Shown here: piece by piece, positions 8,208-12,369 of the stretch | Numbering within the stretch: position 1 is the first letter of the stretch | Layout: every line of letters begins with the position of its first letter | Assembly: GCA_021732785.1 (NCBI GenBank) | Contig: JAKFUG010000026.1 | Span: 62,001 to 126,000 of the forward strand | Direction of reading: 5' to 3' | Source: Planctomycetaceae bacterium | GTDB lineage: Bacteria > Planctomycetota > Planctomycetia > Planctomycetales > Planctomycetaceae | Length of the DNA: 64,000 bases | The notes under the pieces: model-generated | What the model was told of the DNA's origin: nothing | The model's database searches: none | The model's input: only the letters and a program-made list of their open reading frames with translations | Position numbers and translations under genes: made by a program

Positions 8208-9554
8208 CTACGGCTTCGCGCCCGACGGCACCGCGTTCTTCATGAACGCCTCCCACTGCGCGCGCAGCGCTTTCACGCGCTCCGGTTCCTGACTGGCGAG
8301 GTTCGTCTTTTCGCCGATGTCGCTGGCGAGGTTGTACAGCGCGATTCCCTCGGTCACGGCATTCGCTTTCTTCTTTTTGCCTTTGGCGGTCCCGGCCGCG
8401 TTCTCGGCACCCTCTTCGACATCGTCGTTGATCATCAGCTTCCAGTCGCCTATCCGCACCGCCGCCGACTTCGGTGACTTCACGCAGAGAATCGCCTCGT
8501 GAGGGGATTTCGCTCCTTCGATCAGGACCGGCCAGATGTCTTTCCCGTCGATCGGTGATTTCTGATCGAGTGATCCCCCGGCGAGTTTGATCAGCGTGGG
8601 ATACCAGTCGATCACGTGGACCGGTTCCTTGATCCGCACGCCGCCGGGGATGTGACCGGGCCAGTTCGCGAATGCACAGCCGCGGACGCCCCCTTCCCAG
8701 ATCGAACCCTTATAGCCCCGGAGCGGTGTGTTGTCGGTCGGGGCCGGGCCGCCGTTGTCGGAGGAGAAGACGATCAGCGTGTTCTCCCGCATCCCCGCCG
8801 ATTCCAACGCCGCGACAATCTGACCGATGGCTTCATCCACCGCGGCGAGCATCCCCGCCAGCTTCTGTTTCACGCCGGTCAACAAGGAATACGGTTCCAG
8901 ATATTTGTCCGGCACCTGATGCGGCGCGTGGATCCCATTGAACGGCACATACAAAAACAGCGGCTTGGCTTTATTCCGCTCGGCGATCAACCGGCACGCT
9001 TCCTTCGCCACGAGGTGCGTCGAGTACCCCTCTTCCTTCAGCGGCTTGTCGTTGCGGTACCAGTCGTCCATACGGTCGCGAGTGTGGTCGAAGTAATCGA
9101 TGGCCCCGAAGTAGTGGCCGTACTGATGATCGAATCCGCGAGCCGTCGGAACGTACGCCGGGTCAAACTCGCCGAGGTGCCATTTGCCGGTGATCGCGGT
9201 TTCGTAGCCCGCCTCGTGAAGAGCATTGGCGAGCGTCCGCTCCTGCAGCGACAGCCCCCATTTCGCCTTGGGCCGGACAATCGTGTACACCCCCGTATGC
9301 GTCGCATACCGCCCGGTCATGAGCGCCGCCCGCGTGGGCGAACAGACCGGCTGCACATAATGCGACTCCAGCACCACCCCCGCCATCGCCAACCGATCAA
9401 TCTGCGGCGTCTGCGTCACCTTTCCGCCATTGAACCCGCAATCGGCGTAACCGAGATCGTCCACCAAAAGAAAAACGATGTTGGGTTTCGCTTCCGCCGC
9501 GGCCATCGTGGGCATGATCAACACGGCGATCAGCATCAGAACCATTCGCGACAT
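8208..9554 (-). CDS. Type I (formylglycine) arylsulfatase, exported
   Basis: 448 aa; ATG 9554 has GAGGAGCAGCGG directly upstream. A signal peptide covers residues 1-20 (MVLMLIAVLIMPTMAAA). Metal-binding LLVDDLGYADCG (D32, D33) and the sulfatase consensus CSPTR at 71-75 are present; Cys71 would be converted to formylglycine. GKWHLG and SSDNGG complete the active site. Known family role: hydrolysis of sulfate esters, in planctomycetes mostly on sulfated polysaccharides. No carbohydrate-degradation cluster surrounds it, so the substrate is open. A short Lys-rich insertion (AKGKKKKA) lies near residue 400. Confidence 0.95.
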   Translation of the reverse strand: MSRMVLMLIAVLIMPTMAAAEAKPNIVFLLVDDLGYADCGFNGGKVTQTPQIDRLAMAGVVLESHYVQPVCSPTRAALMTGRYATHTGVYTIVRPKAKWGLSLQERTLANALHEAGYETAITGKWHLGEFDPAYVPTARGFDHQYGHYFGAIDYFDHTRDRMDDWYRNDKPLKEEGYSTHLVAKEACRLIAERNKAKPLFLYVPFNGIHAPHQVPDKYLEPYSLLTGVKQKLAGMLAAVDEAIGQIVAALESAGMRENTLIVFSSDNGGPAPTDNTPLRGYKGSIWEGGVRGCAFANWPGHIPGGVRIKEPVHVIDWYPTLIKLAGGSLDQKSPIDGKDIWPVLIEGAKSPHEAILCVKSPKSAAVRIGDWKLMINDDVEEGAENAAGTAKGKKKKANAVTEGIALYNLASDIGEKTNLASQEPERVKALRAQWEAFMKNAVPSGAKP

Positions 9555-9716: not shown

Positions 9717-10850
9717 TCACATGCGGAGCCGGACGCGGTCCGGGGTGACCCATTCGTCCCATTCCGTGAGGTACTCGTCGTAATGCACGAAGTAGATTCC
9801 GTACCAACTGCGGCGGATGTGGCCCGGATACCATTTCTCAACCTTGCGATCTCGAATCTCCACTTTGGTCTCCGCGGCCCATTGGCTCGGTTCGAATTTT
9901 CGCGTCCGCTCGGACTCGACCCATTCGTCCCACTGGTCGGCGAACTTCACGTAATGGACCTTCACGCGGTGGGCATCGACGTCCAGAATCTGGGCGCGGT
10001 ACCATTTCTCGTGCCATAACACTTCCAGCCGTTCGCCCACCCGCCGGTGGTGCCGCGGCTTGGCGACCGCGATCTTCCATGTCCTGGGGAACTCGTCTGC
10101 CGCATGGAAGACGGCCCGTTGACGTTCGATAAACCCCATCTCCAGTTGGGCGTACTCGGCCAGCTCCGTCAGTTCGATCAGCCCGTCGGCATTGGCATCC
10201 AACGCCGCATCGCCTCGCAAGGCCTTCAGGATGGTGTCCGTATACGTCCAGGCCCCCGTCGACGTGTTATGCGAAAACGACGAGCACAGGCAGGCATAAT
10301 GGACGCGCGGCGTCCGGTGGAGCACTTCGTCCATCAGTCCGCCCGAGAAGCAACTATCCGCGATCAACACCGCCCGATCGCCGTGGAAGTGCTGCTCGAT
10401 GCTGTCCACAATCGACTTGACTGACCACGCGGATTTCCCGTCCGTGGAGTCGTAATTCGCGAAGTGAACGAGATGGGATTTCCGGTCGCGGAATCCGTGA
10501 CCGGCGTAGTACACAATCAACAGATCGTGCGGCCGGGTTTTGGCAAGCAACTGAGTCAGTGAACGTTGAATGCGGTCCAGCGTGGCATCGTGATCGGTTA
10601 ACGCGACAATCTGCGACGCCGGCACGCCCGCCGCGCGAAAATGCTGCACGATCTCTGCATCGCGCCGCTGCAGCTTGGCCTTTTCCATCGTCGGCCACTG
10701 ATCGGGATGCTGCCATTCCAGAATGCCCACCGCAAACACCCACGTCGATTGCGGCTTCCAGTCCGCCTCCGCACCCATTACCCACGATGCCGAACCGCCG
10801 AGGAGAATCAGACCGAAGAGCAGTCGGCAGATGGACGGGATGATCTTCAT
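9717..10850 (-). CDS. Exported caspase-like protein with EF-hand and two Tudor-knot domains
   Basis: 377 aa from ATG 10850. Residues 1-26 are a signal peptide ending VMGAEA. Residues 34-240 form a peptidase C14 (caspase/metacaspase) domain: the catalytic His is in YYAGHG (H118) and Cys in DSCFSGG (C167). Residues 218-229 (DANADGLIELTE) match the EF-hand calcium loop at positions 1, 3, 5, 6, 8 and 12. Residues 273-316 and 327-374 are two Tudor-knot/chromo-barrel-like repeats, each with an aromatic-rich core and the ending WDEWV plus a basic R, as in eukaryotic MYST and MRG proteins. Established: C14 domains are cysteine peptidases; EF-hands bind calcium. The combination and its role are inference; calcium-dependent activation is plausible. 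Confidence 0.85.
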   Translation of the reverse strand: MKIIPSICRLLFGLILLGGSASWVMGAEADWKPQSTWVFAVGILEWQHPDQWPTMEKAKLQRRDAEIVQHFRAAGVPASQIVALTDHDATLDRIQRSLTQLLAKTRPHDLLIVYYAGHGFRDRKSHLVHFANYDSTDGKSAWSVKSIVDSIEQHFHGDRAVLIADSCFSGGLMDEVLHRTPRVHYACLCSSFSHNTSTGAWTYTDTILKALRGDAALDANADGLIELTELAEYAQLEMGFIERQRAVFHAADEFPRTWKIAVAKPRHHRRVGERLEVLWHEKWYRAQILDVDAHRVKVHYVKFADQWDEWVESERTRKFEPSQWAAETKVEIRDRKVEKWYPGHIRRSWYGIYFVHYDEYLTEWDEWVTPDRVRLRM

Positions 10851-10983
10851 GGTTCAGAGTCGGGTGCCCCTGTTTGATCGCGTGGCTCAATTTGCTCTGC
10901 AATCCGTGGCCGGCGTGGCCCTGCTTGAAACACTTCAGCATCCGCGGACGTTCGAACTGTGCCACCCGAACAAGTTGTCGGAT

Positions 10984-11057
10984 GGAATGAGTCTTCGAGT
11001 TCCACCATCGGTGACGATGGCTCTCTGGATGGGTGGAACTCGCGGACTCGTTCCACC
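10984..11057. repeat. Inverted repeat of the GGTGGAACTCG family
   Basis: Arms 10984-11006 (GGAATGAGTCTTCGAGTTCC...) and 11032-11057 (GGTGGAACTCGCGGACTCG...) are near-complementary. A second copy of this element lies at 55553-55632. It occupies the spacer upstream of the caspase-like gene and downstream of the small membrane protein. Confidence 0.7.
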
Positions 11058-11090
11058 CGACGTCGCTGCGGCAAACCCGTCCGGTGACGA

Positions 11091-11270
11091 TTACTCTTTC
11101 TCGGAAGTGCCGCCGAAGGCGACCATCAGTCCGCCGATCACCGCCATCGCGATCCCCGCAATCATTTCGTACTCGCCAAAGATACTCACGAGTTTGAACT
11201 GCATTCCCATCATCGGCAGGACGAACGAACCCAGGCCAATGAGCAACAGTGTAACTCCCCAACCGCGCAT
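11091..11270 (-). CDS. Small two-helix membrane protein
   Basis: 59 aa from ATG 11270, with GTGGAGCGG upstream; an in-frame TTG at 11285 is a weaker choice. Two hydrophobic stretches (GVTLLLIGLGSFVLPMMGM and MIAGIAMAVIGGLMVAFGG) suggest two transmembrane helices joined by a short loop, with a charged tail TSEKE. No family is recognised. It lies 240 bases upstream of the caspase-like gene on the same strand, but a repeat sits between them, so co-transcription is uncertain. Confidence 0.6.
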   Translation of the reverse strand: MRGWGVTLLLIGLGSFVLPMMGMQFKLVSIFGEYEMIAGIAMAVIGGLMVAFGGTSEKE

Positions 11271-11629
11271 GCTGCCGCTCCACAAAGAGACCGGGAAAAC
11301 AGAACGATAAAACTCTGCCCGGCATCACAGAAACACCGGTTCGATCAGCACGGGTGTTATACGAATCCCGGTATGCACTGCCAAGTCTGTGTAAGTAGGG
11401 TGTGCCCGCTACGTTGGTGGACACAGCGGCGACGACGGATACTCAACCGGCAGGGTCACCCCGCTTGAATCACTTCAGCAACCGTGAATGTGCCACTGCT
11501 TCGTACTCGAAGCAGTGCTGTCGAACGTTTCGAGAAGCACTCGAAGACACTGCTTCGGGTACGAAGCCGTGGCACATTCATCTCGATCGTAACAGCTCAA
11601 GCTGTGCCGCCCCGCCGGTACCCTGTTGA
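11271..11629. other. Repeat-rich spacer without a gene
   Basis: 359 bases. The right half (11485-11580) is a nested palindrome with outer arms TGAATGTGCCAC / GTGGCACATTCA and inner arms built on CACTGCTTCG and CGAAGCAGTG. Near 11395 a fragment GTAGGGTGTGCCCGCTAC resembles the short palindrome at 12403. No coding frame is supported. Confidence 0.7.
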
Positions 11630-12046
11630 TCAGCACGCACAGCGGAATGGGGGCAATGTATTGCGGTATTCGCCCTGCGGAGCTTGCAGGCCGGTGACGA
11701 TTTCAAAGTTCTTCCACAGTTTCTCGCTGTAGGAATTAAAGTCATAGGGAGTATCAAAGTACAAGAAAAAGTCTCCATCGGTGTGCCGTTCAAGAAAGTA
11801 CAGAAACATCGCATACGGGGTATACATCCTGTCCTCTTCAGTTTCCTCGGCACCTTCCGACCAGCCGAAATCGGGGTGAGTACGAGCGAACTCGCGCAGC
11901 CATTCCTTGGCGGCAGGCCACTTCCGCTGGCGGTCTGCCTCTTCATGTTCGCCCTGCTCATCCAGCCAGTCGGCATAGACCATACGCGTCGCGACATCAT
12001 CCTCGTTGTCTTCCAGTGCCTTGAGGAACTTCTGTTTTACGCTCAT
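11630..12046 (-). CDS. TIGR02996 repeat-companion domain protein
   Basis: 138 aa from ATG 12046, with GGAGAAATTGCG upstream. Residues 5-45 match the planctomycete TIGR02996 signature: F-L-x-A-L-x-D-N-x-D-D, [13 protein letters not shown] and a charged helix EEADRQRKW. The rest is acidic and aromatic-rich ([18 protein letters not shown]) with no recognised motif. The family occurs in large paralogous sets in Gemmata-like planctomycetes, often beside repeat proteins; function unknown. The start overlaps the stop of the upstream gene in the sequence ATGA, so the two are probably translationally coupled. Confidence 0.75.
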
Positions 12047-12369
12047 CGCAATTTCTCCATGATCGCGACATGGGCAGCGGTGAAGACCGGGTGAGTCCAC
12101 ACATGTCTGAGGGAGGTAACCGTGCCGGGATAAAGGCAAAGCCAGAACCGTTGACCCGGTTCGATCTCATTCATCAAGTACGGATCCACAATGCCGATGT
12201 TGTGCTGGCACGGACCAACCAGTTCGACATTGCCTTCTTGAACCAACCCGACGTGTTGCCCAGGCTTCAGCCGTTCCACTGCCGTGACCGGAACGATCGC
12301 AATGTGCACCGCATCCCGCCGCCGCTCGCCGTCGTGGATCAATTCTCCAAGTTGCGGCCCTGCGTCCAT
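12043..12369 (-). CDS. Conserved-looking small protein coupled to the TIGR02996 gene
   Basis: 108 aa from ATG 12369 ([14 protein letters not shown]), preceded by GGAAGACC; an in-frame TTG at 12393 is also open. Features: [25 protein letters not shown], then [20 protein letters not shown] and [10 protein letters not shown]. It looks like a compact beta-rich domain and resembles small hypothetical proteins seen in planctomycetes, but I cannot assign a family. Its TGA overlaps the next ATG by four bases. Confidence 0.65.

Follow-up and report, generated by a model that had tools for sequence, protein, structure and literature searches.

Bacterial chromo-like domains were reported by Kaur et al. 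in 2018 to occur consistently in secreted proteins, where a caspase-like peptidase, seen in planctomycetes, cyanobacteria, bacteroidetes and chloroflexi, is among their commonest linkages and where EF-hands are also linked to them (PMC5906684). The ligands proposed for them are groups resembling methylated lysine on peptides of murein or matrix; nucleic acids in the extracellular matrix of bacteria were raised as a further target, and the secreted bacterial versions were put forward as the ancestors of the eukaryotic histone readers (PMC5906684). Because this architecture was described by Kaur et al., we assign to the published class a protein encoded in a window of 64,000 nucleotides from a Planctomycetaceae bacterium (contig JAKFUG010000026.1, positions 62,001 to 126,000), which possesses the signal peptide, the caspase-like peptidase and the chromo-like domains that define it. 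The likeness extends to the tandem arrangement of the chromo-like/Tudor domains, to the aromatic cage and to the presence in both planctomycetes and cyanobacteria, and we found no difference in kind. The combination of a secreted caspase with chromo-like domains, having been described in 2018 (PMC5906684), is hence not new. What we add is the placement of a calcium-type loop inside the catalytic domain, the conservation of the catalytic dyad, putative S1 acids, loop and cages as counted over 53 proteins, a mixture of Sec- and Tat-like export signals, and members from further phyla; Verrucomicrobiota, Acidobacteriota, Myxococcota and Melainabacteria go unmentioned in the sentence of Kaur et al. 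on the caspase architecture.

The open reading frame was recovered with the same position, strand and length as in a preliminary description of this DNA (Table 1), and the hydrophobic, Sec-like signal at its N-terminus agrees with the export claimed there. Its product is probably an exported caspase-like protease, predicted to be catalytically active. Both Pfam models that had been suggested for a profile search scored above their curated cut-offs, namely Peptidase_C14 (PF00656) with 27.4 bits against 21.4 (E 3.4e-6) and Tudor-knot (PF11717), in two stretches, with 27.4 bits against 20.8 (E 3.2e-6).

Table 1. Features of the exported caspase-like gene and its product (positions in the window)
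Feature	Coordinates	Strand	Basis
Whole CDS, exported C14 / tandem Tudor-knot protein, 377 aa	9717..10850	-	ATG start; 52 full-length relatives
N-terminal hydrophobic signal, Sec-like, residues 1-27 (MKIIPSICRLLFGLILLGGSASWVMGA); cleavage site guessed	10770..10850	-	heuristic; low-confidence N-terminus of the model; Sec-/Tat-like N-termini of relatives
C14 caspase-haemoglobinase catalytic domain, residues 34-262	10065..10751	-	PF00656 above cut-off; model compared with AtMC4
His118, catalytic, in YYAGHG	10497..10499	-	invariant, 53/53
Cys167, catalytic, in DSCFSG	10350..10352	-	invariant, 53/53
Asp64, predicted acidic S1-pocket residue	10659..10661	-	invariant, 53/53; S1 role presumed from knowledge of metacaspases
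Asp165, predicted acidic S1-pocket residue, Cys minus 2	10356..10358	-	invariant, 53/53; aligned with the Asp of DSCHSG in metacaspase-4
EF-hand-type calcium loop DANADGLIELTE, residues 218-229	10164..10199	-	pattern fit in relatives; secondary structure of the model
Tudor-knot / chromo-barrel 1, residues 270-318; putative cage Y284, Y300, F303, W307	9897..10043	-	Pfam; model; alignments
Tudor-knot / chromo-barrel 2, residues 326-375; putative cage Y341, Y357, Y360, W364	9726..9875	-	model; alignments

An AlphaFold2 model of the full protein, for which 38 family sequences served as input, reached a pLDDT of 92.6 and a pTM of 0.88. Its residues 34-260 superpose best on Arabidopsis metacaspase-4 (6w8r; Z 21.3, 2.3 A over 208 residues), followed by metacaspase-9, legumain, caspases and MALT1. 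The H118/C167 pair that had been ascribed to family C14 is borne out by the motifs in which it lies and by its conservation: G42, R62, D64, T90, Y114, G117-H118-G119, D165, C167 and G170, and likewise S190, T198, W201, T202, D218 and Q244, are invariant in all 53 aligned proteins. The invariance of the dyad together with that of D64 and D165 argues that the family has been selected as an active enzyme and is no pseudo-protease. The protease belongs to the orthocaspase/metacaspase side of C14, sharing with metacaspase-4 (6w8r, 6w8s) the caspase-haemoglobinase fold, the His-Cys dyad and an Asp two residues before the Cys. The two invariant acids, D64 and D165, are candidates for the S1 pocket, of which D165 alone is placed by alignment with metacaspase-4, the position of D64 being presumed from metacaspase structures. 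An acidic S1 pocket is a predicted feature of this protease. In metacaspase-4 the GHG motif is followed by the acidic run GEDDDTGFDE, which the exported family mostly lacks, except for one Asp (D134, 52/53); another C14 protein of the same genome (L126) retains a TGFDETIVPHD motif. Relative to orthocaspases and metacaspases, the exported family adds export itself, an EF-type loop further on in the chain and the C-terminal barrels.

This loop had been read in the preliminary description as a textbook calcium loop from an EF-hand fused to the protease. The first part of that reading stands, as a canonical 12-residue loop with the pattern D.[DNS].[DNS]..[ILVMF]...[ED] (D at position 1, [DNS] at 3 and 5, a hydrophobic residue at 8 and [DE] at 12) is present in 52 of the 53 proteins, the sole misfit (L054) having Thr at ligand position 3. 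The second part does not, because in the model residues 218-229 lie within the catalytic C14 fold, flanked by helices 202-211 and 227-242. EF-hand domains are normally paired; here there is a single loop, which does not qualify as a separate EF-hand domain, and the EF-hand Pfam models found no match in the window protein and weak ones in 11 of 38 relatives. Among 17 other bacterial C14 proteins sampled by way of their caspase domain, 10 have the same loop at the same place, including ones without Tudor-knots, and we therefore rejected the loop as a diagnostic of the caspase and Tudor-knot architecture.

Being thus untied to that architecture, the loop could be a fixed structural element of bacterial caspases and no switch, with autoprocessing or substrate availability setting the activity and the barrels acting only as anchors or inhibitory domains. 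An extracellular setting that is often replete in calcium would fit such an arrangement, as does a review of the field in which orthocaspases are described as calcium-independent, with MaOC1, which autoprocesses without further activation, as the one characterized member (PMC5756287); on this ground the loop may be structural only. However, 52 of 53 proteins, with identities of roughly 30-50%, retain the calcium ligands, which points to real metal binding, and the plant metacaspases, which are among the nearest folds, are described as strictly calcium-dependent (PMC5756287). We hold a purely structural loop to be a tentative but serious possibility, and prefer a loop that binds calcium and that may substitute for the metacaspase calcium site.

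The two C-terminal repeats, each closed by WDEWV (W307-V311 and W364-V368), had been likened to the Tudor-knot or chromo-barrel of MYST and MRG proteins, a proposal made to hinge on a structural match to Tudor-like barrels. Such matches were found: modelled alone, the C-terminal 112 residues form two five-strand barrels (pLDDT 95), whose matches include MRG2 in complex with H3K36me3 (4pll; Z 9.6, 0.9 A over 52 residues), MRG15 (2f5k; Z 9.1, 1.3 A over 57 residues), KAT5 (4qqg; Z 8.2), Eaf3 (3e9g; Z 8.2, 0.8 A over 51 residues) and also MSL3. A predicted model could echo known folds, but a profile search, which draws on sequence alone, also matched MRG701 and MRG2 with E-values of about 3e-8 and MRG15 with about 1e-6. 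The family's barrels share with the chromo-barrels of MRG15, MRG2 and Eaf3 and with the MYST Tudor-knots the five-strand barrel, the signature HY..(W/F/Y)...WDEWV and superposition to ~1 A; they differ in being bacterial, exported, in tandem and situated behind a protease. Alignment to MRG701, MRG2 and Eaf3 shows the putative aromatic cage residues intact in both repeats of the window protein, at positions (Table 1) that also follow those of MRG chromo-barrels. Over the family, an aromatic residue is kept at Y300 in 53/53, F303 in 48/53 and W307 in 27/53 proteins in the first barrel, whose final cage position is thus non-aromatic in about half of them, and at Y357 in 53/53, Y360 in 49/53 and W364 in 34/53 in the second.

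Binding of nucleic acids or other polyanions such as extracellular matrix DNA, in place of modified peptides, would direct the protease to biofilm or nucleoprotein. Pfam names the Tudor-knot as the RNA-binding knot of the chromodomain, Arg, Lys and His abound in the C-terminus of the window protein, and matrix nucleic acids were among the targets considered by Kaur et al. (PMC5906684); the basic residues are, however, on the whole less conserved than the aromatics of the peptide cage, and we regard this mode of binding as unlikely.

The layout is widespread in environmental bacteria and well beyond what chance would give. A search of 59 related genomes yielded five full-length relatives from other planctomycete genera at 34-45% identity; a single-sequence scan of genome contigs gave no relatives, and an alignment-based scan of 84,980 species genomes gave 80 loci. 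An alignment was built of the window protein and 52 full-length proteins from these loci (n=53). The architecture for which a survey of planctomycete homologues had been suggested is thereby found in planctomycete relatives and in other groups alike, these 52 being spread over at least eight groups of bacteria, namely Planctomycetota, Verrucomicrobiota, Cyanobacteriota, Melainabacteria, Acidobacteriota, Myxococcota, Chloroflexota and Bacteroidota. In a representative set of 38, C14 was matched in all 38 (E 0.1 or better) and Tudor-knot in 35. The claim that Tudor-knots are rare in bacteria fared unevenly: the Pfam model matches one of the 59 related genomes, as rarity would have it, but profiles built from the family itself pick it up in 22 of 397 genomes of the class, a patchy occurrence, and the barrel profile in 17 of 199 genomes of the phylum, most of the readable ones being caspase fusions. 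Phyla are intermingled in the tree, where 13 label changes stand against a minimum of 7 and the starred branches require at least 5 for Planctomycetota. This suggests horizontal transfer of the family, which stays short of proof because the deep branches are weak.

By a simple heuristic, at least 41 of the 53 proteins begin with a signal of Sec, Tat or lipoprotein type, the remainder being affected by uncertainty in start sites. Tat-like N-termini containing RR were noted, in place of Sec-like ones, in four members from Myxococcales/Deltaproteobacteria (L044, L046, L051, L054) and in one from a cyanobacterium (L021), which suggests that in these lineages the enzyme is exported folded. Apart from the full-length family, a cyanobacterial ORF of 79 aa from Tychonema (L086) matches the second Tudor-knot only (51% identity over 37 residues) and is possibly a remnant or a frameshifted tail. 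Three planctomycete proteins with Tudor-knot repeats and without a recognizable C14 motif (L142, L143, L145) are other contexts of exported chromo-like domains.

Comparison of the family loci revealed no neighbor of the caspase gene conserved beyond close relatives. An apparent cluster of kinases and regulators in 15 loci was considered and set aside, its members being scattered 0.03-7 kb away and a mixture of unrelated multi-domain signalling proteins; it is probably background. Weak matches of the window protein to the NCBIfam model caspase_w_EACC1 (NF047832; 57.2 bits) and to a PADLOC caspase model (E 5.7e-8) bring to mind an effector role in conflict or immunity, like that of the EACC1-associated caspases. 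Yet the NF047832 score is far under its cut-off of 140, the protein carries an export signal and has no conserved partner gene, and searches for carriage by mobile elements gave no relative in phage records and a single partial caspase match in plasmids. Such a role is disfavoured and appears highly improbable.

Downstream of the gene in the window lies a sulfatase (8208-9554). The upstream intergenic region holds, at 11485-11580, a 47-nt inverted repeat (83% complementary, 2-nt gap) that includes two 24-nt copies of a palindrome-like unit and looks like a small palindromic repeat element. A second inverted repeat at 10977-11061 has 30-nt arms that are 87% complementary and separated by 25 nt, and a 33-nt direct repeat joins the intergenic areas at 10919 and 11459. 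Also upstream are a possible small membrane protein of 64 aa with a TTG start (11091-11285, minus strand) and a 169-aa ORF with no Pfam match (11630-12139, minus strand), a stretch of which, as we take it, resembles the planctomycete repeat-companion domain TIGR02996.

The preliminary description had suggested calcium-controlled proteolysis guided by a binding module outside the cytoplasm. Both the calcium control and the guidance are what we likewise infer, and our preferred reading, in which we place about even confidence, is of an exported Lys/Arg-specific endopeptidase that is stabilized or gated by calcium and tethered by its cage barrels. The protein would leave the cytoplasm by way of its N-terminal signal and, as a caspase-like cysteine endopeptidase, would cleave after Lys or Arg; calcium at the loop would stabilize or gate it, and the aromatic-cage barrels would anchor it to peptides of the cell wall or the extracellular space. 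No partner gene is conserved, and the enzyme would work alone, locally turning over or processing proteins of the envelope or matrix, or directed at other cells. The literature that we searched contains no experiments on any family member and identifies no ligand for a secreted bacterial chromo-like domain, and no methylated ligand outside the cells of these bacteria is known to us.

With its 377 residues, a pLDDT of 92.6 and a predicted protease and cages that are intact, the window protein is a tractable case for the ligand and the calcium control of such enzymes, and for the role of bacterial caspases outside the cell. A bolder version, which we consider decidedly unlikely, is that a calcium-gated extracellular protease recognizes methyl-lysine or methyl-arginine as marks on proteins of the envelope or matrix through its tandem chromo-barrels and cleaves the marked ones. 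If true, this would be a reader-guided protease acting outside the cell, drawn from the very pool of domains proposed to have yielded the eukaryotic histone readers.
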